This document shows positions 29,301 to 63,855 of a DNA stretch of 64,000 nucleotides, in pieces (position 1 is the first letter of the stretch; every line of letters begins with the position of its first letter). This stretch comes from Morinoia aosen (Eukaryota; Arthropoda; Malacostraca; Amphipoda; Talitridae). The notes beneath the pieces were generated by a model, which ran no database searches, was not told the origin of the DNA, and saw only the letters and a program-made list of their open reading frames with translations. Where the stretch lies: assembly GCA_030386875.1 (NCBI GenBank), contig CM059577.1:22083038-22147037 (forward strand), written 5' to 3'. The position numbers and the translations under genes were made by a program.

Positions 29301-30052
29301 TCCCAGAGTCGTCCATTTTCACTGCGGAACTTTACGGTGTGCTGGAGGCCCTCCGATTAATTAAACATTGTGTGTATGATACTTTTGCTATTTTTGTGGA
29401 TTCAAAAAGTGTGGTGGAGGCCACTCGAGAGCATAATAGTACCCATCCGCTCGTTGGTGAAATCGTCATGAACTTAATAAATTTAACACGTGAGCGTAAA
29501 TATGTGACGTTGTGCTGGGTGCCCGGCCACGTAGGAGTGTCTGGCAATGAAAGAGCTGATCAGGAGGCTAAACGGGCCGCAGAGGCAAACGAAGAGACTC
29601 TAAATCTGATGGTTCCTTTCCGAGATGATTACCCTCGGATCAAAGCGGCAGTGAGAGAACGATGGCAGCAGGAATGGGACAACGCTGCTAACGATAGCAA
29701 TAAATTAAGGAGCATTAAACCCACTATACGTGAGTGGATATCGTCCAGTTGTCGTGGTCGCCGGTTAGAGGTGATGCTTTGTCGCCTCCGTATTGGCCAT
29801 ACGCGGCTAACACACGGCCACCTGATGGAGCGGCTACCACAGCCGCAGTGCGAACGGTGTCGTGTGCCTTTGACTGTAAAGCACTTCCTCGCGGAGTGTC
29901 CCCTGCATGTATGCTGTTGCCAGGAATCTGCATTTTCCGCACCTTCGCGGTCGTGCAAAGGATGTTTTGACCGGAATACTTGGGGAGGCTGAGCGGTCAA
30001 CTTATAATTTGACAGCGCTGCAGTCGTTTATTGGAGCGTGTAATCTGTCTTC
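26348..30052 (+). pseudogene. LINE 1 ORF2 (endonuclease-RT-RNase H), disrupted
   Basis: The N-terminal apurinic-type endonuclease shows QWNIRGY, QET, GDVNA and SSDAHGSDHYPV. The reverse transcriptase shows APGPDGIHY, NYRPIAL, DMHKAYDTVWR, GLPQGSVMS and the catalytic YVDDF (about 28340). RNase H at about 29215-29590 keeps the D-E-D-D set (FYTDGSK, TAELYG, FVDSKS, NERADQEAK). A C-terminal CERC ... HFLAEC zinc motif follows. Breaks: TAG at 26756, TGA at 26939, TAG at 28430, an extra G in the run at about 28565-28571, and shifts near 29125 and 29975. The last coding stretch reads to a TAG near 30050. All three stops are explained by C-to-T or G-to-A changes, consistent with neutral decay. Confidence 0.88.
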
Positions 30053-43132: not shown

Positions 43133-43223
43133 ATGACGGCGCCGACTCTGCTCGGGCACCGCGCGAGGGTGGTCCTGGTGATGCTGCTGTGGCTGCAGCC
43201 GCTGTCGACTGCTGCGTATAGAG
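43133..43223 (+). CDS. Receptor exon 1, signal peptide
   Basis: Encodes MTAPTLLGHRARVVLVMLL, then WLQPLSTAAYR: basic residues, a hydrophobic core, and small residues at a likely cleavage site. Only a phase-1 end fits exon 2, which puts the donor at AGAG|GCGAGT, a GC donor. The ATG is 12 nt after a 3' splice site. Confidence 0.7.
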
Positions 43224-46200
43224 GCGAGTGTGTGTTGGAGCAGTCAACCCGGTTATGGAAGCAAGTGTGTGTTGTATCTAGATTAGACGTTATTTTAAGC
43301 CTACCTAACCCCAATAAAGGTATATCAAAGAGAAGAAGGAAGAAGGTACCATTCAGTATGGAGATATGGGAACGCAGAATATATGCACAAAGTGCATAGA
43401 AACAGTAAGTTGAGAAAGAAGTTCACGAAACAATATTTGTTGTTAGTTTGAGACTTGGTTTCCATTTGAAGATCGAAGTACTGTGTAATTTTTTTCTCCG
43501 CAAATACTGAGAGCGTAACACGTACGTAAAGATCGACTCAAACTATATAGGTTATAGGCGAGACTGCCTGTGACCTCCTTTTGAGTCAAGTAAGATATAC
43601 AAGATCAAGCAAAGAGAGCGCAGCTTCGTTAAACCTTATTAAGACGTTGGCTGTGGTGGATTAAACTGAAGTTTAATATCCAACCAAAATTGGAAGTGAA
43701 ATTTATTCAGCAAACTTGAAAATAACAAGCATTAAGTGGGTCGCGCTTTCATTTAGCTTTGATTTAGTATTGATGAAAATTGAGTTTATGACGACTAGTC
43801 GGTGAACAACATTATGAAATCCCCTCTGTAAACACCGGCGGCTCGCACCGCGGTGAAAGTGTGAAAAGGAGAAACTAATAATGAAACAAAAAAATACTTA
43901 AACCACTATAATTCATAATAAATGCAATATTTATGTGCAAAATTTGGATAAGAGGGATTTTAAAATCTGCACAGCCTGGTGTGGAAACAGTATCTAAAGC
44001 ATATACGAAGAGCATTTCTTTTCATACATTGCCTGGCGCGTGGTAAACTGAAGTTAAATAGTCGACTCAAATTAGATTTACTTTTTGAGATCATTTTTGA
44101 TAATAAAAAATAAATAAATCACGCCTTAATTTAGTTTTTATAAAATATTTATGAAAATTGAGTTCGTGATTGCTGGCCGGTCAGAAGCATAATGAAAATC
44201 TCATCAGTGACCGCCGGTGGATCCGTCGCAAACGAAGTGTCGACTTTGAGGTCGACACTTCACGCAAAGCTTTCAATACTGGTCTGGCATTGAGTAATAC
44301 TAAAGAAGTACAACTAAATACCGCTTACAAAGGTTACTACGTATGCCATGAGAGGTTTCGGCGTGTGGGGCCTTCATTTTCTTGAAAAAGATAATTTTAT
44401 TGGGGTTGATTTTGACCCGTTATTCTAGAATTCTTCAGAGTTTGCTCTATCAACGAGTCGTTGAATTCTCCCCGGACCATAATTCTGACGATGTAAAACT
44501 GTGCAACATTGGATGTTCCTCGAGGTTCCCTGTCAGTCGCCGGGATGTGTTTTCAGTTCAAGTATTAAAAATTTACATTTCCAATAACTCACGAAATTAA
44601 TATGTCAATTGACTTAACTGAAAAATGGCCAAATTCCAAAAGTAACTTCAAAACTACGTCGAGCAATGACTGCCAAAATCTCTATCAACTCATTCTCGTC
44701 CAGTGGAGAACAACATTCACTTTTGAAATAGCTCTAGCATAATTTATTTCTTGTTAAATTAGTACCTTAATGTGATTTATGAAGTTCACACTCAGTGATA
44801 GTTCCTACCTCATTCTGGTGTCGGTAACACTCCCGCCCGCGCCAGCTTATCAAAGGTGGTGGTTGAAATAACAACGTAAAGTGAGAAAAAATTTCAGGTG
44901 GCAAGAAGCTTGAAATTCAGGCTTTTAATTGTAACTTTGAAACTGTTCCTTCAGCCGTGAGGGTGGAGTTCCAGGGGGACCGAGTGGCGTCCACGGACAG
45001 CCTGCTGCGGTGGACGGGCCCCCCACTGCCCCCCCTGAGGGCGGTGACCACCTGCGCTCGGTTCCTCGTCACCCAGGGCAGGGAGCTCTACCCCCTCGTG
45101 TCCTATGCCACACACACCTTCGACAACGAGCTTCTCGTCCGTGAGTCGCCTGTTGAGGTGTGGTGTGCACGTCGTGCCAACCTCGCTTATTGAAAAAACC
45201 CGAACAGTTTATTTTCCATACGACTGAAGTTTCCGTAAGACTAAAATTTTCATACGACTAAAATTTCCATACAAGTCAAATTTCCATACGACTAAAATTT
45301 CCATACGAGTAAAATTTCCATACGACTAAAATTTCCATACGACTAAAATTTCCATATGACTAAAATTTCCATATGACTAAAATTTTCTAATTTCGAGAGG
45401 CTGTTATAGCGGATAAAAAATCGCAACCTATGCAAACAAAATTGTGAGCATATTTTGAGAATTAAGATTACATGAGTCAAAAGCTAATGAGAATTTAATA
45501 ACTCTGTTAGTCGTTAGGAAGTGAAATGCTCTTACGTACTTGTTCATAAATGCGTTAGCTAATTAATCACGAGTGTGATTATAACACTTCTTATAACACT
45601 TATCTCCATCACTTGCAGGATCAATGCCAGTAGTTCTTATTCACGTTGTGGCTCTTCCAACATGTTTCAACTCAGCTATGCAAATTTGGTGACAGTGCGT
45701 GATTGAAGTTTGTTTTCAGATACCTGGAACAAACGGTCAAGTTTGTATGCTTTAGTCTCCAGATACCCAAAACTAACAGTGAAGTTCGTATGCTTTAGTC
45801 TCCAGGTACCCAAAACTAACAGTGAAGTTTGTATACCTTAGTCTCCAGATACCCAAAACTAACAGTGAAGTTAGTATGCCTTAAGGGCCGTTTACACTGG
45901 TCTACATTTTGCTGCAGGCTCACGTGTAGACGCCTCGTGTGGAGCTTCACAAGAGACATGTGCGTTTAGACTAGACACCATTGGAGCGAGCCATGGAGCG
46001 CGCGCTGCTCAACAGGGCTGCCACTCTAGATATTATATAGCTAGTTCTAGATGTTTTTGCTGAAGCCTAGATGTAAAATTTCGAACCTAGATATTAGCTA
46101 CAAAATCTATATAGTTTTTTCAGCGTGCTAGAAATTTTCTAGCTAGAATTACATTTAAGCTATGTATATGATAGATTACTGTAAATTCGAATTAGGAATT

Positions 46201-49200
46201 TACCATAATGGTTGGTTACTACATCATTCTTATTATATTTGTTAATTCACTTAAGCAAATTGTCTGAATAGTGAAGCAACCAAATTCTGATCATGTTATG
46301 TTCAGATTATGAACGACACCAAGACGGCTATTTCACGGTTCATAAGCTAAAGCACATTATCTCCAATTGCAAAACTAGTGATGATATCAAAAAATCATGG
46401 AATAAAAGGCACATACATTATCAAGAATGTATTGTGGCCTCATTTTTACGAAAGACTGACCAATGATATTGGTAACAATGAGTTCAGTTTATTGTTGGAT
46501 GGAAGCAATGATATTTCTATCATGAAACTACATGGTGTATCAGCTATATACTAAAGTAATGCATCTATTAAAGTAGAATCAACCTACTTAGTAATTGCAA
46601 AATTATTAAAAATGATGAAGGTAGCGGTGTGAAAGCCTTAAAACAATTGTTGATAAGTAGGAATCTGAGCATTGATAATTGCAATGCAATAGAGACTGAC
46701 CTTTCTACTCGCAACACGTGTGGAATTGAAGAATATTTGGATACCAAGCTTTATTAGGGTAAATATCAGGATACTAGATAATTTATATAAAGATAAATTG
46801 CCTAATATAAAGCTATTTATGATATAAATATTCTTATATGCTATTGTTCAACTAATTTATTATAGTAGATAATTAATTTATTTCTAGATAAATGTTTGGA
46901 TGTTTTATTTTTAAATCTATATGTTTCTCGATATTTTTTGAGGTCACACTAGATTTTTTGGTCAAACACAAGTGGCAGCCATGCAGCACAAAACCATTCA
47001 GTGTGGCTTGCTGCTTTGAAATATGGATTGCTGTTGACGAGCTTGTGTGAATATTGTTGCTGCATCGTAGCTACGTAATCTCTTTTTTATTTGCATGAGT
47101 GTAATGTTACTATATTCGTTCATTTTCATTAAAATATAATGGAAAGCAGCCTCCTTATATTCACAGCTTTTAGTCTGCCAAAGGCATTGATGGGCTTAGT
47201 ACATTTCAATTAGAAGCAGTGTAGTTTCTCGAGGCAGTGTTGAGTCAGCCATTACGGGTGAGCGAGAGGCGCCACCTCACTTGATGACTACTACTTGCAC
47301 ACTGACCGGTCTAGAGCAGCGCGGCCAGCGCCGCTCACACTTGCAGCCGCTCCACGGATTCAATCAAAGTGAATCGGGAACTTCGGGCTCACACACACAA
47401 ATATGAGCCTCAGTGGTGAGCTTCGTCTACACGAGTCGCGCCTCACAGCCGAAATGTCCCTTAGTGTAAGCACCCCTTTAGGCCGCCCGCCCACTGATGC
47501 AATTCCATGCGATGCGATTCGCCTCAACCGACTGTGAGTTAGGTAACACAATGCTATTCCTACGGTGCTACAAATGAACCGTGCGATTTCGCAAGGCGTC
47601 CAACCAGTCGCATCGCATCAGTGGGCGGGCGGCCTTAGTCTCCAGGCACCCGGAACGAACGGTGAAGTTTGTATGCCTTAAGGGGTGTTTACACTAGGGG
47701 ACATTTCGGCTGTGAGGCGCGACTCGTGTAGATGAAGCTCACCACTGAGGCTCATATTTGTGTGTGTGAGCCCGAAGTTCCCGATTCACTTTGATTGAAT
47801 CCGTGGAGCGGCTGCACGTGTGAGCGGCGCTGGCCGCGCTGCTCTAGACCGGTCAGTGTCCAAGTAGTAGTCATCAAGTAAGGTAGTGCCTCTCGCTCAC
47901 CTGTAATGGCTGACTCAACACTGCCGCGAGAAACTACACTGCTTCTAATTGAAATGTACTAAGCCCATCAATGCCTTTGGCAGACTAAAAGCTGTGAATA
48001 TAAGGAGGCTGCTTTCCATTATATTTTAATGAAAATGAACGAATATAGTAACATTACACTCATGCAAATAAAAATGAGATTACGTAGCTACGATGCAGCA
48101 ACAATATTCACACAAGCTCGTCTACAGCAATCCATATTTCTCAGCAGCAGGCCACACTGACTGGTTTTGTGCTGCATGGCTGCCACTTGTGTTTGACCAA
48201 AAAATCTAGTGTGACCTCAAAAAATATCGAGAAACATCTAGATTTAAAAATAAAACATCCAAAAATTTATCTAGAAATAAATTAATTATCTACTATAATA
48301 AATTAGTTGAACAATAGCATATAAGGATATTTATACCATAAATTGCTTTATATTAGGCAATTTATCTTTATATAAATTATCTAGTATCCTGATATTTGCC
48401 CTAATAAAGCTTGGTATCCAAATATTCTTCAATTCCACACGTGTTGCGAGTAGAAAGGTCAGTCTCTATTGCATTGCATATTATCAATGCTCAGATTCCT
48501 ATTTATCAACAATTGTTTTAAGGCTTTCACACCGCTACCTTCATCATTTTTAATAATTTTGCAATTACTAAGTAGGTTGATTCTACTTTATTAGATGCAT
48601 TACTTTAGTATATAACTGATACACCATGTAGTTTCATGATAGAAATATCATTGCTTCCATCCAACAATAAACTGAACTCATTGTTACCAATATCATTGGT
48701 CATTCTTTCGTCAAAATGAGGTCACAATACATTGTTGATAATGTATGTGCATTTTATTCCATGATTTTTTTATATCATCACTATTTTTGCAATTGGAGAT
48801 AGTGTGCTTTAGCTTATGAACCGTGAAATAGCCGTCTTGGTGTCATTCATAATCTGAACATAACATGATCAGAATATGGTTGCTTCACTATTCAGACAAT
48901 TTGCTTAAGTAAATTAACATATATAATAAGAATGAAGTAGTAACCAACCATTAGGGTGAATTCTTAATTCGAATTTACAGTAATCTATCATGTACATAGC
49001 TTAATTGTAATTCTAGCTAGAAAATTTCTAGCATACAGAAAAACTATATAGATTTTATAGCTAATATCTAGGTTCAAAATTTTACATCTAGGCTTTAGCA
49101 AAAACATCTAGATCTAGCTATATAGTATCTAGAGTGGCAGCCCTGTTGAGCAGCGCGCGCTCCATGGCTCGCTCCAATGGTGTCTAGTCTAAACGCACAT

Positions 49201-52200
49201 GGCTCTTGTGAAGCTCCACACGAGGCGTCTACACGTGAGCCTGCAGCAAAATGTAGACCAGTGTAAACGGCCCTTTAGTCTCCGTGTCCTCTGAACAAAC
49301 GGTGAAGTTTGTATGCTCTAGTCTCCAGGTACCCTGAACAAACGGTGAAGTTTGCATGCTTTAGTCTTCAGATACCAAAACGAACGGTGTAATTTATATG
49401 CTTTAATCTTCAGATACCGAAACAAACGGTGTAATTTATATGATTTAGTCTACAGATACCCGAAACAAACGGTGAAGTTTGTATGCTGCAGCGGCAGATC
49501 GACCTTAGAGATCCCTGTGAACTTCAGCTTGTACGAGTGGCACTCGTTTTGCCTGACGGCGGACCTGCGGGGCGGTACTTACGATCTCTGGGAGGACGGG
49601 CACCGCCGGCACGGGATGCTGCCTCACAAGTAATGAGATCTGCGAGTCTGAGCTCTAGAGACTTTTTAAGCCGGTATTTTTATTGTTACAAATCTAAATT
49701 CTTCTGAGGAAATCTTCGGTACTAAATTTTTTAATTTGAAATTGTTAAATTGAAATAAGCTTCTGGAAAATATTGTTTTTGCTATCGCACTGAAAACTTT
49801 AAAAATGGTATTGACCATCTCTTTGCTGGAAACTACCTAATATGCTAAACTTCTAAATTAAGGTTTGACAGTAACTTCGGAAAAATATTTCAAAAAAATA
49901 AAAATGTAACTGAAACAATAAATTCGTAGACGAAATTCACTGTGCTATATTAGAGTCTGTCTTTGTCTGCTTGAATGTGCATTGTGCACTATGTTCAAAA
50001 ATCCCCCGTAGGAGATTAAATCTAAGTAGCGTCAATATTAAATGAGAGACAAGACCGCGATTGGATTATCTTTTGTTGGTGACGATACGAAACGAAATCA
50101 TCTAATTTCAGGAGCCCACAGCTATCAAACCAGTGTTATTTATTTTAAACTTACTAGTGCTTGTGATTGACAGTTTTGAGTAGGGCTATTACTACTCTTG
50201 CTATTGTAGCTATTTACACACTTTTTATCTTTCCGTAAGGCTATAGCAGATAGAAGTAATAAAGGTAATCATCACGTAATGTAGGTAATGATTCTAACAC
50301 TTTTATGACTCTTTTATCCTCTCTCCTATACTCCACTTGCATTCTACATCTGTTCTACTTCTATTCTCGTGCCTGTGCATCATTGGGGTCTAACGACTCA
50401 GGTTCGGGTAGCAGCTCATGAATGGGTGTCTCAGCTCGGTTCTATAGCAATGTTTCATTCTGCTCAGTTCATTTTGAAGGGGCATCAATTTACAATAATG
50501 TTCTCCCATTAATTTTTAATCGATGTCTTATAGTCGAATACATATTTTGCTTACAAAGAATACATCTTAGAAACAATCACGGGCAAATAGTGGAAAAGGA
50601 TAAAATATGTTTATATACGTCAACAGACGAAAAACGACAAACGTTTTCCAAAGGCTCTGAAATATACTACTCTCTCAGGCCGGATATAGTTGGTCCATAT
50701 CAATGTTGAAGCGGGTCGGAAATGTCTACTTCATAACAATTGAAACCCTTTTAGAAATGATACTTGCAAAACTATTGGTTGGAACAAGAAGATAAACTGT
50801 ATTCTGTAATTAATGCGATACATGAAATTGAAAACGTATAAACATCAATCAGTATGGCGAATTACAATGAATAATTTTATAGTATTTTTAATAAGATAAT
50901 TAACTAAAGTTAAACTCTACATTGTAATTGAATACATGAAATTGACAATGTATCAACAGAAGAAACATATTAGCCCCTATATTTATTCAATTCTTTTTAA
51001 TTTATTATTCAGTTTTTCTAAAATTTGAATTGAATTTAAAAGAATCCTATTTTTCTATTTGTACTTTCGACAGATGTTAAAGCCTGTAATAATTGCCACC
51101 GTCAGCCAAAATAATTTGTTCCATTGTCTGATGCAAATTAAGGAAAGTGTTGTTCAATGTTGAGATCTGAAATTCCTCAAAGCTGTCTGTCACTGCATCA
51201 ATTATTTCATCAACGTTCCGTGGTACTTTTTGATGTTGAAGGGATTGGATTGAATTGAAATAGCCGAAGCGCTGTAAATCTGACAAGAAATGCCTGCCAT
51301 ACTGCTCTTCTCTCTGAATCTGTCAAATCTTTTGTCTGTCGGCTAAAGGCATGTGCACGTCCTATTAGTATAATCTGTTCTTGCCATGGATATCTTGCGA
51401 GTTATTAAAAACTTTTAAATATTATCTGAGATAGCAAAAATGCAAAATTATACCAACTTTTACCCTATTATTCTTTAAAGCTTTAGATTTTATTTTAACA
51501 CACTGTACACGATCGTCTATTGTTCTCAAAACAGAAGTTCGTTGAAAAACACTAAAACGCTGAGAGTTTTCTCTTCACGTTCCAAATGTTTCCCACCGGA
51601 GGGAGTATTAGTCTTGATGGGATTATTCAATCGTAATGATAGTAGCAATGCATTTTTTCAGGCTGGATAAACAGAGGTCGTGTTTTTGTTTTTGCTATAA
51701 GTAATAGGCCATCATGTGCTCCAAAAAATTATTGGGAAAGATGTTGGGAAATGACAGCATTGTGTTCAGGACGTTTGCTTAATTTTACTTTCAAATATTA
51801 TCCTTTCACTCAATAAAATTCCTGCCCATTTTTCTTTTATTACTATAATCAGGCTAAAAGAGAGAGCTAAAATAACAACTGAATTGAGAACATCAACTAA
51901 ATCTTCTGTTTTCATTTTGACCCTCAGGGGCGAGTTATCAGACCTGACAATAGAGGGGGGTGGCGTGTTGGTGGTGGGGCAGGAGCAGGACATCCAGGGG
52001 GGCGCATACAACAAAGACCAAACCATGATTGGCTCGCTGGCGGACTTGAGGGTATACAACTCTGCGGTAGACCCTGCCCTCTGTCGCGGCTACACCGTGT
52101 GTGAGGACGACGTCATGCCTGACGAAGTTCTCATCGACTTCCGCTCACTGAACGCGTCTTATAGTTCCAGCAACGTTGAGATCAGTTTTGTGGAAGTCAA

Positions 52201-55200
52201 CTCCTCTCTGTGTTCGTCGGTTTTGAAGTACGATATTGTTTTCCCGAAGTTGTTGACGTTCTGGGAAGCACGCGATTTTTGCTTCTCCATCGGTGGAACA
52301 GTTGGACTTCCTAAGAGCGAATTTGAGAACAAAGAACTTCTACAACTTGCTTTTCAGAACGTGAATTCCTGTCCAACTTCTAAGACAGACTTCATTTGGC
52401 TCGGGTTCAATTACTTATACAAGACAAAAATTTTAGTTCACTATTTGACGCGATCGAACCTAATTTACGATAATGTCGAAAAGGCCAAAATCACTTTAGC
52501 TGACGTCGAAGACTCTTGTGGTACTTTCAACGGAAATCCAAAGGATATGCCTATTTGGTTTGGAATTTGGCAAACGAGTGACTGTTTGGAAACGAGATGC
52601 TTGGTGTGCCACTTCGACCAGCTCACCTTGATCACACTGCGTGGTCTGTGCGATAAGTCCTACTTCGATCGAAGGTATTTTGCTTCAAAAGATGAGAACG
52701 GAACATTCGAACTCGTGGGCGAGTATTACTCAGTCATACGTCTGCAGCCGGGCAGCAAGAGAAGCATCTTCGGATACTGGAAGCTATTCCGCCTGGACCA
52801 GCCTGATGTGTTCGCCACCCTGGAGAGAACCTCCATAAACCACTACCCGACGGGACTAAACAACTGGACTGTGCATCAGGACATTTGCCAGGGCGATAGT
52901 GTGGCACTGAAGCTCTCAGTATGCGGACGAGGGCAGTTCACATGCAACAATGGCGTTTGCATTCCTCTTGTTTTGCGTTGCAACAACGAGAGAGAATGTC
53001 CCGACGGCACAGATGAAGTTGATTGCAACCCTCTCATTTTCCCGTCGTTCTCTTACGAGCCTATCGCCCCGGCAGTTTTATCGGAAAACAGAAAAATATT
53101 ACAGATGAACTTCAATATTAAAATATTGAGTATAAAGTCCGTAGATTTGAGGGCTTTCCAATTCACAACTGAGCTTGTGACCTCTCTGGAATGGCACGAC
53201 GGGCGCATGCGGTTCAGAAACCTGGACATGGAGGGCCAGCTGACGAAGCTGGGGACGGACTCGGCCTCACAGCCTGTGTGGACGCCTGGTGTCAGCTTCA
53301 TGGGGGCCGAAAGCACCGCCTGCGACGTTATTATGAGGTCCAGCGAACTTTTCATAGTCAGAAAATCTGGTCCTGTTGCCAACTCCATGGACAGCGTCCT
53401 TGAAGGCGAGTGAGGGCACCAGCGGGTGTGCTCGGGGGTGAAATCAGGCTGAAAGCTTTTGTTAAATTATATTGGAAATTATTGTAAAAAGTTATTGTTG
53501 AATTACATATAATAATTAATTGTTAAATTATGGCGGTCTCTCGAGCAATGAAGAGACTTAAAAGAGCAATAAAAATATAAGAGCAAGAAGGAGTACGTAA
53601 AAATTTTTTAATACTGACAAAGCGAACTTTTTTGCTGCCGTGGCAATTGATGAATTTGCTGCAAAAGCAAAGTATAGAAAATAAAGCTAAATATGTCGAA
53701 TTAATAAAACTTTAGTTATTTTTTCTTGATCTCTATTGATGTGCAGTACAACACTCTTCCATATGTAGTTCGCACATCCTGCATATTTTTATCTATTCAC
53801 AGCACAATCAAGAGAGTCCCGTTCAACCGCAAAAGAAATAAGTAATGAGAGAAAACAAAAAATGGCCTAGTAGAGGGTAGCAGAAAAATATCAAAGTATG
53901 CAGTACTCGTGAGAGTTTTATGCAAGAACCTTGCAACGTGTTTAAAATTTTTACCTCCAACTACCCTTTAGGGGCAGGCTAGAAACCAAACTCATTCCTC
54001 AACCAAAATTAAAAAAGAAAATTTCATACGCATTTCCTGCTGTATATGTCGGTAGAAATGGCGCCAAATGTCGACCATTTGAGACCTTTGAGTAGACGCA
54101 CTAAAAATACAAAATTTCTTGAAGATCTCAATAAAATCGGAGTTTTGGAAAGATGGTAAAACAGGGATGTACTTGCTTCATATTGGAAAACTCAATTGAT
54201 AGTGTTATTTTCAGTATATTCGAAAGCTCGTCTTATTTTAAGTATAAGTCGCGTACGTAAATATCTGCTCTTTTTCATTAGTCTTACATAACATCGCTTC
54301 CCCATTTTTGATTATTAGGCTAATTTAGATTACTATGCATTCTCTACTCTCTGTAATTTTTCCTCGCAACTTGCACGTGATCGTCTCTTGTTAACAGAAT
54401 TATTCATGTGAATTGCACCGGTCAGTTGACGATAGCCTGGAGCACGTAGTTCGCATACTAACTACAGGGTGTCCCCAAAGATGAATGTATTAATCGACAG
54501 ACGATTACTCATGCATTTTTTTGTTTCAGGTGATCTAAGTTTTAACTTACGACACCTAAGTTTTCTAACTTCAATGCTTTTCTTTTTGATTTAACTCATT
54601 AAACTTGTACCTATTTCAATCAACTCTACATGAAATCAAAATAGATGAGTAATGGATATTCAAATACCGAGTACGTTTATTTGGGGGTGCCCTTTACACA
54701 CAGTTCTGGGACAGGGTTATCAGACCTTACCCGCTGCCGTAGCTGTACAACTTGCAGTATAAGTTCATCTTGAGATTTTTTGCCTCATGTACCATCATTT
54801 CTACCCGAAATTACAAAACCTCTCATTTTCTTTCACTCTTTTTTTGCGCACGAATTTTTTCTTCGCGACTTTTTGGCTCGTGACCGACCCCTACGCTTTG
54901 CTGTTAGTGGGAACATTATCAGTCTTTAGGTCTCAATGCACGTTAATTTGCTGATATGGATTTCGTACCATTGACCGAGAGAACGACCCATAGTTTGAAA
55001 TGCGCATTTTGGCCGTTAATTTCTTGTTGAAAAATTGAATCCTGACTCTCTCTTCCATTCAGACAATATATTCAGCGGAGACGACAACCCTTTTCGCCTC
55101 CAGTCTACCTACTCCGTCGCTGCAGTGTGTCAGTTTGACTTCTTTGCCTTTCCGTTCGATACGCAGCATTGTTACCTGGTGAGCAGAGTGTGGAGTGTGG

Positions 55201-56616
55201 AGTGTGAAGTGTACAGGATAGTGTGTAGAGAGTAGAGTATGGAGTGTAAAATGCGAAGCGTAAAGTAAACAGCGGAGAGCATAGAGTATATAGTGTAGTG
55301 TACAGTGATACCCAAGATCCAAATTTACTCTACCCCACCCCACCTCCCTGCAGACCCTCACCCTCAACACCCCGGACGTTGCACTGGTTCCCACAGCGGA
55401 CCGCATCTCCTTCCTGGGGTCGCGGCGTCTCCTGGAGTACAGTGCGCACACCGTCAGCGTCAACGTGACGGAGGTCGGCGCAGTGCTGTGTGTCGTGATG
55501 TGGGGCGTGCTGTGTGTCCTGGTGGGTTTCGTAGTGGTATGTCCTAATTAACTGACGTCTATCTATAGAGTTCAGCTCTCTACTCACATCAGTAAAGGCC
55601 AAAGTTCCCTCCCGCTTCATGTGTTTTTTCGTCCCTGTGCTACTGAATCTTAGAAAATATTTTTTTCTTCTCCTGTGTGGTTGTGCGAGTTTTTATGCCA
55701 CGGTAAACCAAAAAGATCGACCTTCAAGTGTGCGCAGTAGGAGTTTGGTCTACTTGGTTTAACGACGTATAAAATTTTAAACAACTGAACTAGTTATGAT
55801 GAAGTTGTGTACCGGTATTTCGGAGGCCGGGGGCGAAACCGTCAGGTTAACACGTTTCCTGCGGCGGGTGAAACTGAAGTTCAATGTTCAACTCAAATTA
55901 GAGTCAATTTTGGAGATCCATTTTGAAAGTAACGAACATCAAATAGATTGTGCCTTCATTAAGTTTTCATTGAGTATTAATGAAAATTGAGTTTGTGACT
56001 GCTAGTCGGTCAGCAGCATTATGAAATTCTACTCACTGACCACCGGTGGGTCCCTTCGTAGGAGAGATGTTAAAGTTGTTACCAATGCTCGGCGTGCTGC
56101 TGTCATGTGCTTTTGCAACTTTGAAGTCTTCACTACCATTGATGAACTTCTTCAAAGTATGAGTTCCTTTAATTAAGCTAATATGTTAATGAAAGAAAAT
56201 TTCCTGAACTCAACCATGCAGGAAACTGGATAGTTACTTTCCATCTACAGAACCATGAAATTCATTTGCATAAAAACATTCCTTCACTCCCTCAAAGTCA
56301 TTTTAGCAAATTAACTGCTGTGACCAGCGCAAAAATATTGAGGGTAGGCACTGAGCATCACATTGGAGACACAATGATAAGTTAGTAAAGAACTGAATTC
56401 AAACGATATCAATTTTTTTGAAGAAGTACGGTTGTTGCAGAAGTGCCCTGTGTTGCAGGTACCACTCGGTGAGTCCATCTCGTCCTCGCTGGTGGTGACG
56501 GTGGTACTCAAGAACCTGGTGACGTACCACGTGATCAGCACCTTCGCTCCGACCCTCACGCTGCTCATCATTGGCTGCCTGTCCTTCCACTTCCCTCTGC
56601 ATGACTTCAATGATAG
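43133..56616 (+). CDS. Pentraxin / C-type-lectin-like / LDLa / Cys-loop channel fusion receptor (5' part)
   Basis: Exons 43133-43223, 44955-45144, 49456-49629, 51928-53405, 55063-55178, 55354-55473 and 56459-56616 join in phase to about 775 residues. Domains: signal peptide (about 1-27); pentraxin (about 30-212, with SYATHTFDNELL, WHSFCLTAD, VVGQEQDIQGG); C-type-lectin-like (about 247-378, lacking EPN and WND calcium motifs); an unassigned beta-rich segment; LDLa (about 484-518, six cysteines, DGTDEVDC); Cys-loop ligand-binding domain (from about 524, cysteines 667 and 681 around 13 residues with FPFDTQ); TM1 (about 746-767). TM2-TM4 lie beyond the window. A plasma-membrane ligand-gated ion channel with a carbohydrate- or pathogen-binding-type ectodomain is inferred; ligand and ion are unknown. 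Introns 1 and 4 need GC donors. Exon 6 end and exon 7 start each have one alternative. Confidence 0.85.
43280..43418 (-). mobile_element. Retroposon family A, copy 7 (3' part only, inverted)
   Basis: Read on the minus strand it carries CTGTTTCTATGCAC, CTCCATACTGAATGGTACC and GGTTAGGTAGGCTTAAAAT, matching the 3' third of the family. It lies 57 bp into receptor intron 1. Confidence 0.65.
43643..43864 (+). mobile_element. Family-B MITE, copy 3
   Basis: Follows TTAA (43639-43642). Contains GGATTAAACTGAAG, GACGACTAGTCGGTGAAC and CACCGGCGG in the family order. Located in receptor intron 1. Confidence 0.55.
44024..44241 (+). mobile_element. Family-B MITE, copy 4
   Basis: Contains GGTAAACTGAAGTTAAATAG, CTGGCCGGTCAGAAGCATAATG and GTGACCGCCGGTGG. 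It is about 160 bp downstream of copy 3 in the same orientation, so the two may be independent hits or a duplicated pair. Confidence 0.55.
44955..45144 (+). CDS. Receptor exon 2, pentraxin N-terminal half
   Basis: Encodes VRVEFQGDRVASTDSLLRW through CARFLVTQG and SYATHTFDNELLVR. The NELL(V) strand is characteristic of pentraxins. The acceptor is CCTTCAG. Two overlapping donors occur, GTGAGT at 45141 and GTCGCC at 45145; only the second keeps frame with exon 3 (reading VRE then YPKQTVKFVC). Confidence 0.75.
45226..45388. repeat. 17-bp minisatellite near the receptor intron 2 donor
   Basis: About nine units of ACTAAAATTTCCATACG, beginning some 80 bp after the donor. Units diverge slightly (TTTTCATACG, CATATG). 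Confidence 0.85.
45884..47477 (+). mobile_element. 1594-bp TTA transposon, copy 1
   Basis: Ends are AGGGCCGTTTACACTGG on the left and CTTAGTGTAAGCACCCCT on the right, imperfect inverted repeats, with TTA at 45881-45883 and 47478-47480. The interior around 46290-46745 has a decayed transposase-like reading: KNVLWPHFYERL, then DIGNNEFSLLLDGSND, then KALKQLLISRNLSIDN. This recalls hAT-type (DUF4371/ZBED-like) proteins. The 3-bp TTA duplication instead fits PIF/Harbinger. It is the mirror image of 47681-49274. Confidence 0.8.
47481..47634. mobile_element. 154-bp MITE with GGCCGCCCGCCC ends
   Basis: Terminal inverted repeats GGCCGCCCGCCCACTGATGC and GCATCAGTGGGCGGGCGGCC are perfect over 20 bp. 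It is flanked by TTA (47478-47480, shared with the preceding transposon, and 47635-47637). Confidence 0.8.
47681..49274 (-). mobile_element. 1594-bp TTA transposon, copy 2 (inverted)
   Basis: Same length as copy 1 and nearly identical by eye, in reverse orientation, with TTA at 47678-47680 and 49275-49277. Both copies share the same coding decay, so the family was already non-autonomous when these copies moved. With copy 1 it forms a 3.4-kb inverted repeat around a 203-bp spacer inside the receptor intron. Confidence 0.85.
49456..49629 (+). CDS. Receptor exon 3, pentraxin core
   Basis: Encodes YPKQTVKFVCCSGRSTLEIP, then VNFSLYEWHSFCLTADLRGG and TYDLWEDGHRRHGMLPH-. The W-H-x-x-C and W-x-D-G patterns match neuronal pentraxins and CRP. 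The acceptor TCTACAG belongs to the last minisatellite unit. An alternative acceptor at 49497 keeps phase but drops 14 residues the pentraxin fold needs. The donor is AA|GTAATG. Confidence 0.8.
49630..51927. other. Receptor intron 3
   Basis: AT-rich, with no exon, transposon end or tandem repeat recognised. Small open frames show no family signature. Confidence 0.5.
51928..53405 (+). CDS. Receptor exon 4: pentraxin end, lectin-like, LDLa, channel LBD start
   Basis: A single 1478-nt exon. Order: GGGVLVVGQEQDIQGG and LADLRVYNSAVD close the pentraxin. FWEARDFCFSIGGTVGLP and CLETRCLVC mark the lectin-like fold. LRGLCDKSYFDRRYFA through WKLFRLDQPD is a beta-rich segment of unknown family. CGRGQFTCNNGVCIPLVLRC opens the LDLa module. 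LEWHDGRMRFRNL and PVWTPGVSF are channel loops. The frame stays open to a TGA at 53411, but phase with exon 5 requires a donor at GAAG|GCGAGT (53406), not the GTGAGG three bases on. Confidence 0.85.
53406..55062. other. Receptor intron 4
   Basis: Contains a mariner-type MITE (54465-54694) and otherwise no recognised feature. It begins GCGAGTGAGG and ends TTCCATTCAG. Confidence 0.5.
54465..54694. mobile_element. Mariner/Tc1-type MITE, 230 bp
   Basis: Ends CAGGGTGTCCCCAAAGATG and the inverse of AAGGGCACCCCCAAATAAA, with TA on both sides (54463-54464 and 54695-54696). Same end type as 20244-20441. Confidence 0.7.
55063..55178 (+). CDS. Receptor exon 5, Cys-loop
   Basis: Encodes NIFSGDDNPFRLQSTYSVAA followed by VCQFDFFAFPFDTQHCYL. 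The two cysteines enclose exactly 13 residues with FPFDTQ, the defining signature of Cys-loop ligand-gated channels. The donor CTG|GTGAGC is followed by a short-period repeat. Confidence 0.9.
55179..55300. repeat. Degenerate AGTGTGG repeat at the receptor intron 5 donor
   Basis: From the donor onward the intron reads GAGTGTGGAGTGTGGAGTG and similar 7-8-bp words (AGTGTGAAGTGTACAG, GTGTAGAGAGTAGAG), decaying rightward over about 120 bp. Confidence 0.7.
55354..55473 (+). CDS. Receptor exon 6, channel ligand-binding domain
   Basis: Encodes TLTLNTPDVALVPTADRISF and LGSRRLLEYSAHTVSVNVTE. The acceptor is CCCTGCAG. The donor ACGGAG|GTCGGC at 55474 keeps phase. GCA|GTGCTG at 55483 also does and adds three residues (VGA). 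The frame after that runs into genomic VLCVVMWG..., probably intron. Confidence 0.7.
55851..56069 (+). mobile_element. Family-B MITE, copy 5
   Basis: Flanked by TTAA at 55847-55850 and 56070-56073, 219 bp, beginning CACGTTTCCTGCGGCGGG. It contains GAAACTGAAGTTCAATG and GGTCGGTCAGCAGCATT. The best-preserved copy of the family here. Confidence 0.75.
56459..56616 (+). CDS. Receptor exon 7, pre-TM1 and TM1
   Basis: Encodes VPLGESISSSLVVTVVLKNL and then YHVISTFAPTLTLLIIGCLSF and HFPLHDFND-. TM1 carries the APTL motif, corresponding to the LPT of other Cys-loop channels, and ends with DFND just before TM2. An alternative acceptor at 56440 adds KCPVLQ in frame. The donor GATAG|GTCGGG lies in the first unit of a 15-bp minisatellite, and the reading frame continues open into it. 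Confidence 0.85.
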
Positions 56617-56785
56617 GTCGGGCAATGGCAGGTCGGACAGTGGCAGGTCTTGCAGTGGCCGGTCGGGCAGTGATAGGTTGGGCATTGACAGATCGGGCAA
56701 TGGCAGGTCGGGCAACGGCAGGTCGGGCAATGGCAGGTCTGCAATGGCAAGTCAGGCAATGGCAGGTCGGGCAATGGCAATGACC
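56613..56785 (+). repeat. 15-bp minisatellite at the exon 7 donor
   Basis: About eleven units of GGTCGGGCAATGGCA (one of 14 bp) start at the splice donor. Most units recreate CAG|GTCGG, a weak 5' splice-site match. In the exon frame the first units encode RSGNG repeats. Confidence 0.9.
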
Positions 56786-56904
56786 GAAAAAACCTATTCA
56801 CAACGCAGTAACTGACAGGATTTGAAAAGGAAAGCTGTCTTCAGTTTCATCGCTGTTTTCGAAGGCATCAGTCAGTTTCGTGGGAGGATTACGACACCTG
56901 TTGG

Positions 56905-59900
56905 GTCTCGTAGTATTGGGTCTCGTAGTATTGGGTCTCGTAGTATTGGATCTCGTAGTATTGGGTCTCGTAGTATTGGGTCTCGCAGCATTGGGTCTCG
57001 TAGTATTGGGTCTCGTTGTATTGGGTCTCGTAGCATTGGGTCTCGTAGCATTGGGTCTCGTAGTATTTGGTCTCGTAGTATTGGGTCTCGTAGTGTTGGG
57101 TCTAGTAGTATTGGGTCTCTTAGCATTGGGTCTCGTAGTATTGAGGCTCGTAGTATTGGGTCTCGTAGCATTGGGTCTCGTAGTATAGGGTCTCGTTGTA
57201 TTGGGTCTCGTAGTATTGGGTCTCGTAGCATTGGGTCTCGTAGCATTGGGTCTCGTAGTATTGGGTCTCGTAGTATTGGGTCTCGTAGCATTGGGTCTCG
57301 TAGTATTGGGTCTCGTAGTATTGGGTCTCTTAGCATTGGGTCTCGTAGTATTGGGCCTCGTAGTATTGGGTCTCGTAGCATAGGGTCTCGTAGTATTGGG
57401 TCTCGTAGCATTGGGCCTCGTAGTATTGGGCCTCGTAGTATTGGGTCTCGTAGTATTGGGTCTCGTAGCATTGGGTCTCGTAGTATTTGGTCTAGTTGTA
57501 TTGGGTCTCTTAGCATTGGGTCTCGTAGTATTGGGGCTCGTAGTATTGGGTCTCGTAGCATTGGGTCTCGTAGTATAGGGTCTCGTTGTATTGGGTCTCG
57601 TAGTATTGGGTCTCGTAGCATTGGGTCTCGTAGCATTGGGTCTCGTAGTATTGGGTCTCGTAGCATTGGGTCTCGTAGTATTGGGTCTCGTAGTATTGGG
57701 TCTCTTAGCATTGGGTCTCGTAGTATTGGGCCTCGTAGTATTGTGTCTCGTAGCATAGGGTCTCGTAGTATTGGGTCTCGTAGCATTGGGCCTCGTAGTA
57801 TTGGGCCTCGTAGTATTGGGTCTCGTAGTATTGAGTCTCGTAGCATTGGGTCTCGTAGTATTTGGTCTCGTAGTATTGGGTCTTGTAGTGTTGGGTCTCG
57901 TAGTATTGGGTCTCTTAGCATTGGGTCTCGTAGTATTGGGCCTCTTAGCATTGGGTCTCGTAGTATTGGGTCTCGTAGCATTGGGTCGCGTAGCATTGGG
58001 TCTCGTAGCATTGGGTCTCTTAGCATTGGGTCTCGTAGTATTGGGTCTCGTAGCATTGGGTCGCGTAGCATAGGGTCTCGTAGCATTGGGTCTCTTAGCA
58101 TTGGGTCTCGTAGTATTGGGCCTCTTAGCATTGGGTCTCGTAGTATTGGGTCTCGTAGCATTGGGTCGCGTAGCATTGGGTCTCGTAGCATTGGGCCTCG
58201 TAGTATTGGGTTTCGTAGTATTGGGTCTCGTAGTATTTGGTCTAGTAGTATTGGGTCTCGTAGTATTGGGTCTCTTAGCATTGGGTCTCGTAGTATTGGG
58301 CCTCGTAGTATTGGGTCTCGTAGCATTGGGCCTCGTAGTATTGGGTCTCGTAGTATTGGGTCTCGTAGTATTGGGTCTCGTAGTATTTGGTCTAGTAGTA
58401 TTGGGTCTCGTAGTATTGGGTCTCTTAGCATTGGGTCTCGTAGTATTGGGCCTCTTAGCATTGGGTCTCGTAGTATTGGGTCTCGTAGCATTGGGTCGCG
58501 GAGCATTGGGTCTCGTAGCATTGGGTCTCGTAGTATTGGGTCTCGTAGTATTGGGTCTCGTAGCATTGGGTCTCGTAGTATAGGGTCTCGTAGTATTGGG
58601 TTTCGTAGAATCGGGTCTCGGAGCATTGGGTCTCGTAGCATTGGGTCTCGTAGTATTGGGTCTCGTAGTATTGGGTCTCGTAGCATTGGGTCTCGTAGTA
58701 TTGGGTCTCGTAGTATTGGGTCTCTTAGCATTGGGTCTCGTAGTATTGGGCCTCGTAGTATTGGGTCTCGTAGCATTGGGCCTCGTAGTATTGGGTCTCG
58801 TAGTATTGGGTCTCGTAGTATTGGGTCTCGTAGCATTGGGTCTCGTAGTATTGGGTCTCGTAGTATTGGGTCTCGTAGCATTGGGTCTCGTAGTATTGGG
58901 TCTCTTAGCATTGGGTCTCGTAGTATTGGGTCTCGTAGCATTGGGTCTCGTAGTATTGGGTCTCGTAGTATTGGGTCTCGTAGTATTGGGTCTCGTAGTA
59001 TTGGGTCTCGTAGTATTGGGTCTCTTAGCATTGGGTCTCGTAGTATTGGGTCTCGTAGCATTGGGTCTCGTAGCATTGGGTCTCGTAGTATTGGGTCTCG
59101 TAGCATTGGGTCTCGTAGTATTGGGCCTCGTAGTATTGGGCCTCGTAGTATTGGGTCTCGTAGTATTGGGTCTCGTAGTATTGGGTCTCGTAGCATTAGG
59201 TCTCGTAGTATTGGGTCTCTTAGCATTGGGTCTCGTAGCATTGGGTCTCGTAGTATTGGGTCTCGTAGTATTGGGTCTCGTAGTATTGGGTCTCGTAGTA
59301 TTGGGTCTCGTAGTATTGGGTCTCGTAGCATTAGGTCTCGTAGTATTGGGTCTCTTAGCATTGGGTCTCGTAGCATTGGGTCTCGTAGTATTGGGTCTCG
59401 TAGTATTGGGTCTCGTAGCATTAGGTCTCGTAGTATTGGGTCTCTTAGCATTGGGTCTCGTAGCATTGGGTCTCGTAGCATTGGGTCTCGTAGTATTGGG
59501 TCTCTTAGCATTGGGTCTCGTAGTATTGGGTCTCGTAGCATTGGGTCTCGTAGCATTGGGCCTCGTAGTATTGGGCCTCGTAGCATTAGGTCTCGTAGTA
59601 TTGGGTCTCTTAGCATTGGGTCTCGTAGCATTGGGTCTCGTAGCATTGGGTCTCGTAGTATTGGGTCTTTTAGCATTGGGTCTCGTAGTATTGGGTCTCG
59701 TAGTATTGGGTCTCGTAGTATTGGGTCTCGTAGTATTGGGTCTCTTAGCATTGGGTCTCGTAGTATTGGGTCTCGTAGAATTGGGTCTCGTAGCATAGGG
59801 TCTCGTAGTATTCGGTCTCTTAGCATTGGGTCTCGTAGCATTGGGTCTCTTAGCATAGGGTCTCGTAGTATTGGGTCTCGTAGCATTGGGTCTCGTAGCA

Positions 59901-62900
59901 TTGGGTCTCGTAGCATTGGGTCTCGTAGTATTGGGTCTCGTAGCATTGGGTCTCGTAGCATTGGGTCTCGTAGCATTGGGTCTCGTAGTATTGGGTCTCG
60001 TAGCATTGGGTCTCGTAGCATTGGGTCTCGTAGCATTGGGTCTCGTAGCATTGGGTTTCGTAGTATTGGGTCTCGTAGCATAGGGTCTCGTAGGATTGGG
60101 TCTCGTAGCATTGGGTCTCGTAGCATTGGGTTTCGTAGTATTGGGTCTCGTAGCATAGGGTCTCGTAGCATTGGGTCTCGTAGCATTGGGTCTCGTAGCA
60201 TTGGGTTTCGTAGTATTGGGTCTCGTAGCATAGGGTCTCGTAGTATTGGGTCTCGTAGTATTGGGTCTCGTAGCATTGGGTCTCGTAGCATTGGGTCTCG
60301 TAGTATTGGGTCTCGTAGCATTGGGTCTCGTAGCATTGGGTCTCGTAGCATTGGGTCTCGTAGCATTGGGTTTCGTAGTATTGGGTCTCGTAGCATAGGG
60401 TCTCGTAGTATTGGGTCTCGTAGCATTGGGTCTCGTAGCATTGGGTCTCGTAGCATTGGGTCTCGTAGTATTGGGTCTCGTAGCATTGGGTCTCGTAGTA
60501 TTGGGTCTCGTAGTATTGGGTCTCGTAGTATTGGGTCTCGTAGCATTGGGTCTCGTAGTATTGGGTCTCGTAGCATTGGGTCTCGTAGCATTGGGTCTCG
60601 TAGCATTGGGTCTCGTAGCATTGGGTCTCGTAGCATTGGGTCTCGTAGCATTGGGTCTCGTAGTATTCGGTCTCTTAGCATTGGGTCTCGTAGCATTGGG
60701 TCTCGTAGCATTGGGTCTCGTAGTATTGGGTCTCGTAGAATTGGGTCTCGTAGCATAGGGTCTCGTAGTATTCGGTCTCTTAGCATTGGGTCTCGTAGAA
60801 TTGGGTCTCGTAGCATAGGGTCTCGTAGTATTCGGTCTCTTAGCATTGGGTCTCGTAGCATTGGGTCTCGTAGCATTGGGTCTCGTAGCATTGGGTCTCG
60901 TAGTATAGGGTCTCGTAGTATTGGGTCTCGCAGTATTGGGTCTCGTAGCATTGGGTCTCGTAGTATAGGGTCTCGTAGTATTGGGACTCATAGTATTGAG
61001 TCTCTTAGCATTGGGTCTCGTAGTATTTGGTCTCGTAGCATTGGGTCTCTTAGCATTGGGTCTCGTAGTATTTGGTCTCGTAGCATTGGGTCTCGTAGCA
61101 TAGGGTCTCGTAGTATTGGGTCTCGTAGTATTGGGCCTCGTAGCATTGGGTCTCGTAGCATTGGGTCTCGTAGTATTGGGACTCATAGTATTGTGTCTCG
61201 TAGCATTGGGTCTCTTAGCATTGGGTCTCGTAGTATTTGGTCTCGTAGCATTGGGTCTCGTAGTATTGGGTCTCTTAGCATTGGGTCTCGTAGCATTGGG
61301 TCTCGTAGCATTGGGTCTCGTGGTATTGGGTCTCGTAGCATTGGGTCTCGTAGTATTGGGTCTCGTAGTATTGGGTCTCGTAGTATTGGGTCTCGTAGTA
61401 TTTGGTCTCGTAGCATTGGGTCTCGTAGCATAGGGTCTCGTAGTATTGGGTCTCGTAGTATTGGGTCTCGTAGTATTGGGTCTCGTAGTATTGGGCCTTT
61501 TAGCATTGGGTCTCGTAGCATTGTGTCTCGTAGCATTGGGTCTCGTAGAATTGGGTCTCGTAGTATTGGGTCTCTTAGCATTGGGTCTCGTAGTATTTGG
61601 TCTCGTAGTATTTGGTCTCGTAGTATTTGGTCTCGTAGTATTGGGTCTCGTAGTTTTGGGTCTCGTAGTATTGGGTCTCGTAGTATTGGGTCTCGTAGTA
61701 TTGGGTCTCGTAGTATTTGGTCTCGTAGTTTTGGGTCTCGTAGTATTGGGTCTCGTAGTATTGGGTCTCGTAGTATTGGGTCTCGTAGTATTGGGTCTCT
61801 TAGCATTGGGTCTCGTAGTATTGGGTCTCGTAGTATTGGGTCTCTTAGCATTGGGTCTCGTAGTATTTGGTCTCGTAGCATTGGGTCTCGTAGCATAGGG
61901 TCTCGTAGTATTGGGTCTCTTAGCATTCGGTCTCGTAGCATTGGGTCTCGTAGCATTGGGTCTCGTGGTATTGGGTCTCGTAGTATTGGGTCTCGTAGTA
62001 TTGGGTCTCGTAGCATTGGGTCTCGTAGCATTGGGTCTCGTAGTATTGGGTCTCGTAGCATTGGGTCTCGTAGTATTGGGTCTCGTAGCATTGGGTCTCG
62101 TAGCATTGGGTCTCGTAGTATTGGGTCTCGTAGTATTGGGTCTCGTAGCATTGGGTCTCGTAGTATTGGGTCTCGTAGCATTGGGTCTCGTAGTATTGGG
62201 TCTCGTAGTATTGGGTCTCGTAGCATTGGGTCTCGTAGCATTGGGTCTCGTAGCATTGGGTCTCGTAGCATTGGGTCTCGTAGCATAGGGTCTCGTAGCA
62301 TTGGGTCTCGTAGCATTGGGTCTCGTAGTATTGGGTCTCGTAGCATTGGGTCTCGTAGTATTGGGTCTCGTAGTATTGGGTCTCGTAGCATAGGGTCTCG
62401 TAGCATTGGGTCTCGTAGCATTGGGTCTCGTAGCATAGGGTCTCGTAGCATTGGGTCTCGTAGCATTGGGTCTCGTAGCATTGGGTCTCGTAGCATTGGG
62501 TCTCGTAGTATTGGGTCTCGTAGTATTGGGTCTCGTAGTATTGGGTCTCTTAGCATTGGGTCTCGTAGTATTTGGTCTCGTAGCATTGGGTCTCGTAGCA
62601 TAGGGTCTCGTAGTATTGGGTCTCGTAGTATTGGGTCTCGTAGTATTGGGTCTCGTAGCATTGGGTCTCGTAGCATTGGGTCTCGTAGCATTGGGTCTCG
62701 TAGCATAGGGTCTCGTAGCATTGGGTCTCGTAGCATTGGGTCTCGTAGTATTGGGTCTCGTAGCATTGGGTCTCGTAGTATTGGGTCTCGTAGTATTGGG
62801 TCTCGTAGCATAGGGTCTCGTAGCATTGGGTCTCGTAGCATTGGGTCTCGTAGCATAGGGTCTCGTAGCATTGGGTCTCGTAGCATTGGGTCTCGTAGCA

Positions 62901-63855
62901 TTGGGTCTCGTAGCATTGGGTCTCGTAGTATTGGGTCTCGTAGTATTGGGTCTCGTAGTATTGGGTCTCTTAGCATTGGGTCTCGTAGTATTTGGTCTCG
63001 TAGCATTGGGTCTCGTAGCATAGGGTCTCGTAGTATTGGGTCTCGTAGTATTGGGTCTCGTAGTATTGGGTCTCGTAGCATTGGGTCTCGTAGCATTGGG
63101 TCTCGTAGCATTGGGTCTCGTAGCATTGGGTCTCGTAGCATTGGGTCTCGTAGTATTGGGTCTCGTAGCATTGGGTCTCGTAGCATTGGGTCTCGTAGCA
63201 TTGGGTCTCGTAGCATTGGGTCTCGTAGCATTGGGTCTCGTAGTATTGGGTCTCGTAGTATTGGGTCTCGTAGCATTGGGTCTCGTAGCATTGGGTCTCG
63301 TAGCATTGGGTCTCGTAGTATTGGGTCTCGTAGCATTGGGTCTCGTAGCATTGGGTCTCGTAGCATTGGGTCTCGTAGCATTGGGTCTCGTAGCATTGGG
63401 TCTCGTAGTATTGGGTCTCGTAGTATTGGGTCTCGTAGCATTGGGTCCAGTAGTATTGGGTCTCGTAGTATTGGGTCTCGTAGCATTGGGTCCCGTAGTA
63501 TTGGGTCTCGTAGTATTGGGTCTCGTAGCATTGGGTCTCGTAGCATTGGGTCTCGTAGCATTGGGTCTCGTAGTATTGGGTCTCGTAGTATTGGGTCTCG
63601 TAGCATTGGGTCCCGTAGTATTGGGTCTCGTAGTATTGGGTCTCGTAGCATTGGGTCCCGTAGTATTGGGTCTCGTAGTATTGGGTCTCGTAGCATTGGG
63701 TCCGGTAGTATTGGGTCTCGTAGTATTGGGTCTCGTAGCATTGGGTCTCGTAGCATTGGGTCTCGTAGCATTGGGTCTCGTAGTATTGGGTCTCGTAGCA
63801 TTGGGTCTCGTAGTATTGGGTCTCGTAGCATTGGGTCCCGTAGTATTGGGTCTCA
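56905..63855. repeat. 15-bp satellite, ~463 units, ~6.95 kb
   Basis: The unit is GTATTGGGTCTCGTA. Common variants are GCATT for GTATT, CTTAGC for CGTAGT, ATAGGG for ATTGGG, and GGGCCT for GGGTCT. Phase is kept at exactly 15 bp throughout, with no visible indel. Higher-order duplications are visible: 62281-62700 equals 62701-63120 (28 units), and about 57130-57260 recurs at +390 bp (26 units). Because 15 is divisible by 3, long open frames appear on both strands ((GSRSI)n on the plus, (NTTRP/NATRP)n and (LRDPM/I)n on the minus). These are treated as by-products. It lies inside the receptor intron that follows TM1. Confidence 0.95.

Follow-up and report, generated by a model that had tools for sequence, protein, structure and literature searches.

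Does a gene of the amphipod Morinoia aosen really place pentraxin, lectin-like and LDLa domains in front of a Cys-loop channel, and what would such a subunit be for? The window analysed here is the whole stretch of 64,000 nucleotides at C22:22083038-22147037, for which the initial annotation proposed seven exons that can be joined in phase. All seven are present at 43133-56616 as first described, and the joining was reproduced. Together with three exons beyond the window they give a spliced model of ten exons and 1015 aa without a stop (Table 1). Pfam recognizes Pentaxin (6.9e-18, residues 78-227), LDLa (3.2e-10, 506-540), Neur_chan_LBD (1.4e-13, 559-708) and Neur_chan_memb (1.9e-10, 771-1001, covering profile positions 2-228 out of 233) in this model; of the five profiles expected to occur jointly in one transcript, only Lectin_C went unmatched in this member. 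Exon 4 is a single open frame running from the pentraxin through to the ligand-binding domain (LBD), and on its own it still returns Pentaxin (4.6e-6), LDLa (1.3e-10) and Neur_chan_LBD (4e-8). Several exon edges were set by phase and homology and are provisional, namely the exon 1 donor, the exon 3 acceptor, the exon 6 and exon 7 donors and the start of exon 10.

Table 1. Exons and domain segments of the channel gene (window positions unless a locus is given).
Feature	Position	Strand	Remark
Exon 1: start codon and signal-peptide-like hydrophobic stretch (judged by eye)	43133..43229	+	donor picked by phase
Exon 2: first pentraxin part	44898..45140	+	
Exon 3: middle pentraxin part	49449..49629	+	acceptor uncertain, in 42-bp tandem repeat, picked by phase
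Exon 4: pentraxin end, C-type-lectin-like domain, conserved unnamed domain, LDLa, start of Cys-loop LBD	51928..53409	+	
Segment with conserved unnamed domain (~95 aa), between lectin and LDLa	52598..52924	+	alignment of 14 members
Exon 5: Cys-loop, C-x13-C	55076..55178	+	
Exon 6: remainder of LBD	55354..55473	+	donor GTCGGC, non-consensus
Exon 7: TM1	56459..56616	+	donor GTCGGG, non-consensus
TM2 exon, beyond the window	L009:2615-2666		
TM3 exon, beyond the window	L009:3443-3559		
Exon 10: M3-M4 loop, TM4 and stop	L009:~9626 to L010:120		start uncertain

A lack of TM2-TM4 downstream had been named as grounds for giving up the fusion, and all three exons were located 2.6-10 kb beyond the end of the window. 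TM4 was the hardest to place: a first pattern gave no match, a small profile ranked the correct stretch third (6.1 bits), and the segment was accepted once the sequence had been read and the spliced model had matched Pfam. Judged from sequence, the locus is almost certainly one fused channel gene, predicted to encode a complete Cys-loop (pentameric) ligand-gated channel subunit in which a recognition ectodomain of ~500 residues precedes an ordinary LBD.

Repeats occupy parts of the introns. Between exons 2 and 3 there is a 3.4-kb near-perfect palindrome (45880-49278), with arms of 240, 564 and 804 nt that are 96-97% complementary. Much of the intron past exon 7 consists of a ~7 kb minisatellite built on a 15-bp unit (56901-63854), a repeat effect that leaves both strands open for >2300 codons. 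Another 15-bp repeat (AGGTCGGGCAATGGC) spans 56615-56779 and begins at the exon 7 splice donor, so that its units carry copies of the donor-like AGGTCGGG. Open frames at 24533-29992 resemble, by eye, a non-LTR retrotransposon (gag-like, reverse transcriptase, RNase H).

The architecture is not confined to this locus. Searching the 1.99 Gb genome (29 contigs) with exon 4 returned at least 85 matches, many of them short ones that span little beyond LDLa and prove little. Sixteen, the window included, extend from query residue 11 or earlier to residue 370 or later, each within a single open frame (458-593 aa). Thirteen continue into the LBD and the other three, all on C5, end just past LDLa. The matches cluster on C5, C6, C8, C15, C16, C17, C19, C21 and other contigs, and even divergent C21 and C3 members keep, by eye, the lectin-like, unnamed, LDLa and LBD parts in order. 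The domain order proposed initially (pentraxin, lectin-like, unnamed segment, LDLa, LBD) is thereby strengthened by the paralogues.

Channel parts follow at most of these loci. Taking 69 TM matches of one search plus five rows picked from the 83 of another, a same-strand TM match was found within 30 kb downstream for 15 of the 16 long matches (the exception is C15:55663759; for C6:52922836, one of the 15, it lies 26.7 kb off) and for 52 of all 85, part of which may be a neighbour's TM within tandem arrays. As a control, opposite-strand TM matches lie within 30 kb in 2 of the 85 cases. For 12 of the 85, a same-strand TM match also lies upstream. TM1-TM4 can be read by eye within one open frame at L050, L057, L069 and L072. 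Two members on C6 (L025 and L026, C6:97783676 and C6:98583537, at 97.78 and 98.58 Mb) are identical across 1635 bases although 0.8 Mb apart, and may represent a recent duplication or one gene present twice in the assembly. At L034 (C15:55965765) the pentraxin-lectin and LDLa-LBD parts fall in different frames, pointing to decay or an extra intron. Elsewhere in the genome, L061 (C12:42827096) is an arginine kinase with >300 codons in a single open frame. One arginine kinase of this genome gave its best scores, among solved chains of one domain, with 5zhq, 4bg4, 8yx0 (named Pro c 2.0101), 4bhl and 4am1, which are enzymes of crab, shrimp and crayfish, and scored far lower with the Limulus chains 1bg0/1m15, so a malacostracan host is probable.

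A genome search with the Pentaxin family gave 20 matches, the window's own barely at threshold. Fifteen share an open frame with an exon-4 match, four lie within 15 kb of one on the same strand (C4, C15:55966889 and two on C18), and the last falls within a long repetitive protein. That 19 of 20 sit at such loci suggests where most detectable pentraxin sequence in this genome has gone, for a search of a kind that misses pentraxins split across short exons.

Within the ectodomain, the C-type-lectin-like label holds, on sequence matches to solved chains. The exon 4 scan found no Pfam match for the window member's lectin region, and single-sequence search of that region gave 3l9j chain C (7.8e-5; listed as TNFalpha, presumably a tetranectin-based binder) and tetranectin (6.7e-4), a similarity that rises to 1.8e-14 with a profile of 15 family members. 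Among those 15, Pfam finds LDLa in all, Pentaxin in 14, LBD in 12 and Lectin_C in 10. The EPN/QPD sugar-binding motif is absent from the window member's C-type-lectin-like domain (CTLD) and present in the CTLD region of four of the 27 members scanned (L020, L027, L028, L035). Classical sugar binding by the window lectin domain is therefore doubtful, and its assignment as a mannose or galactose binder is unsupported.

Aligned with C-reactive protein (CRP), the window pentraxin retains the residues at DNE and GQEQD, which we take to be the calcium site; N stands at the later CRP E position and Q is kept. By this alignment its calcium site would be mostly retained. L019 and L023 read GQGQG and L014 reads GQQQN at the corresponding stretch, so calcium binding is not universal among the pentraxin copies. 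Across the 14 aligned members, the unnamed domain between lectin and LDLa has P-x-G-x3-W without variation, flanked by cysteines (four further extracted members were excluded as too divergent). Profile searches against Pfam and the PDB returned no credible relative for it (best PDB E 0.66). Single-sequence models were poor, with mean pLDDT of 44.2 and 30.7, and strands dominate the low-confidence model, which is compatible with the beta-rich label it was first given.

Comparison of recent copies indicates which parts are held most tightly. By the NG86 method, omega is below 1 in 49 of the 50 domain comparisons for which it is defined (60 made, 10 saturated). Six pairs of the C6 cluster (L013, L014, L016, L017) and six of the C19/C6 set (L032, L033, L036, L039) account for 47 of 48 such values; the sole exception, 1.83, comes from two pentraxins that differ by hardly any synonymous change. 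In the C5 set 10 of 12 comparisons were saturated and the other two gave 0.13 and 0.19. Within the C6 cluster dN spans 0.087-0.185 for the lectin region, 0.020-0.128 for the pentraxin, 0.028-0.047 for the unnamed domain, 0.012-0.061 for LDLa and 0.035-0.059 for the exon-4 part of the LBD. Median omegas there are 0.37 (lectin), 0.28 (LBD part), 0.25 (pentraxin), 0.16 (LDLa) and 0.12 (unnamed domain), and in the C19/C6 set 0.47 (lectin), 0.37 (pentraxin) and 0.22 (unnamed domain), which makes the lectin region the least constrained in both. In five of six C6-cluster pairs dN is higher for the pentraxin than for the LBD part, which does not hold for omega, and in the pair L016/L017 the pentraxin dN (0.020) is below that of the inner domains. 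The recent copies are thus under purifying selection, which acts least strongly on the lectin region; these NG86 comparisons did not show positive selection for the outer domains.

In a tree of the TM part with 17 rows, the ten rows of the family separate from seven others of this genome, four nicotinic-type and three anion-type (support 80/87, recovered in 76% of 200 bootstrap trees). Three branches are long and support for the family is modest. The nearest ectodomain relatives of the window are L013-L017, and its nearest rows in the TM tree by path are the TM exons L059, behind L013, and L060, behind L015, in a clade that is not strongly supported. Since these TM neighbours lie behind the nearest ectodomain relatives, ectodomain and channel part probably share a common history.

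What kind of channel is this? Against solved structures, the LBD and TM part comes closest to a pH-gated chloride channel (5e-16) and to GABA-A and glycine receptors, with the LBD and the C-x13-C Cys-loop intact, so by similarity it would belong to the anion class. The family does not group with nicotinic receptors, the four nicotinic-type rows being kept apart in the tree (99/96). Nevertheless the anion motif P-A(G)-R before M2 is missing from the window, which has FNDR with its acidic residue. None of the ten members read across this site (window, L050, L057, L059, L060, L068-L072) has P-A/G. In eight of the ten, read in frame or in a splice model, position -1' is acidic, and the other two have N and L. 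An exon edge falls at the site in six further members, with D in L055 and L056 and V in L051-L054, so that none of the 16 members carries the anion motif. The three anion-type loci of the tree carry VPGR or VPAR before M2. Charge selectivity is set by residues around M2 and in the M1-M2 loop (PMC4562599), so for members with an acidic -1', including that of the window, permeability to cations is no more than a fair guess.

Taking these observations together, we most likely see a family of surface sensors in which varied outer recognition domains, of kinds that commonly serve to recognise sugars and microbes, sit on a conserved channel. The best overall explanation of the locus, which we hold somewhat more readily than not, is that the complete subunit serves as such a sensor; that its ectodomain also controls gating we regard as nearly evenly balanced, leaning slightly against. 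Five subunits would assemble, and the pentraxin, alone or together with the lectin domain, would bind an extracellular ligand in a calcium-dependent way. Candidates are a microbial or matrix polysaccharide, a phosphorylated lipid or glycan, or a host glycoprotein. The unnamed and LDLa domains would relay binding to the LBD, so that the pore is opened or tuned. Gating in response to sugars, pathogens or matrix, as first suggested, may occur; the family could form a repertoire of surface sensors for contact chemoreception or immune sensing, an immune role being possible. Several pentraxins form five-fold rings, and in a bolder and unlikely version five pentraxins would form a ring atop the five-fold channel, to be twisted or closed by a multivalent polymeric surface ligand so that the pore opens; given the acidic residue before M2, the result would be a cation-conducting, calcium-dependent pattern-recognition channel. 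If true, this would place a further large receptor repertoire beside the known chemoreceptors and soluble lectins.

Other explanations start from the same data. Neuronal pentraxins anchor or cluster glutamate receptors, and likewise an ordinary small ligand, pH or a metal ion might gate this channel at the LBD while the pentraxin-lectin-LDLa ectodomain merely anchors or clusters the receptor. We consider this the less probable account, yet a serious one: it is favoured by the resemblance to the pH-gated chloride channel, GABA-A and glycine receptors, by the intact LBD and Cys-loop, and by a pentraxin omega that does not exceed the LBD-part value. By contrast, amino-acid change between recent copies is greatest in the lectin region, a pattern better suited to varied recognition than to a fixed anchor, although relaxed constraint is also compatible with it. 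Less likely again, the gene product could be a channel-like binding subunit or obligate partner, non-conducting alone, in a system where varied binding subunits serve a few pore subunits. The M2 11' position could be read in this sense, being E in the window and L059 and Q in L060 against mostly L in other members, but the subunit retains its four TM segments along with the M2 core and the C-x13-C loop.

Very improbable, finally, is that two neighbouring genes, or a decayed gene, have been misread as a fusion. The non-consensus donors of exons 6 and 7 and the position of exon 3 and exon 7 edges within tandem repeats could be cited for such a misreading. Against it, the span from pentraxin to LBD lies inside exon 4, the order is repeated at many loci, and ten exons join without a stop. 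The initial annotation had already argued from exon 4 against two neighbouring genes, and this argument is borne out by Pfam on that exon; with the paralogues repeating the order, the two-gene reading is rejected.

Among the open-access matches listed, no title or abstract described a pentraxin or lectin joined to a Cys-loop channel, and automatic database annotation of such a protein may exist. In the passages covered (PMC9219234, PMC4569296, PMC4938653, PMC4562599, PMC4795631, PMC5437397, PMC3879215), a term search for 'lectin' found nothing in the spider channel paper, the pan-kingdom channel inventory or the Daphnia channel study, a search of the malacostracan immunity survey found neither 'pentraxin' nor 'ion channel', and the passages of the tick channel paper leave such domains unmentioned.

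Compared with anion-type Cys-loop receptors (the pH-gated chloride channel 9rgn/9rgm, GABA-A, glycine and GluCl), the window channel aligns over LBD and TM1-TM3 with E from 5e-16 to ~1e-10 and shares the 13-residue Cys-loop and a TTLL-type M2 core; it differs from them in ~500 extra N-terminal residues and in FNDR before M2. A long stretch ahead of the LBD is also found in 6v4a and 9ftg, in which the match begins at residue 433 of 642 and 400 of 609 and is limited to LBD and TM. We take both to be bacterial channels of the DeCLIC type with extra N-terminal domains, and we know of no pentraxin, lectin or LDLa in that type. Pentraxins such as neuronal pentraxin, CRP, SAP and the SAP-like 3flp have the GQEQD..GG core in common with the family, as CRP does the DNE site; to our knowledge none of the known ones is fused to a channel. 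Polycystin-1 and pentraxin-bearing adhesion GPCRs signal at the membrane and carry ectodomains of lectin, LDLa or pentraxin type, on membrane parts unrelated to Cys-loop channels. The octopus chemotactile receptors are a lineage-specific Cys-loop expansion that works as contact sensors, acetylcholine-receptor-like and without such an ectodomain. The kind of channel is thus known, and the ectodomain and its multiplication look new. Should sensing proceed through the outer domains, pattern-recognition modules would act as direct electrical sensors, with recognition and signal in one molecule, linking immunity or contact chemoreception with excitability, adding a large receptor family and offering a tractable system for the control of Cys-loop gating by added domains.
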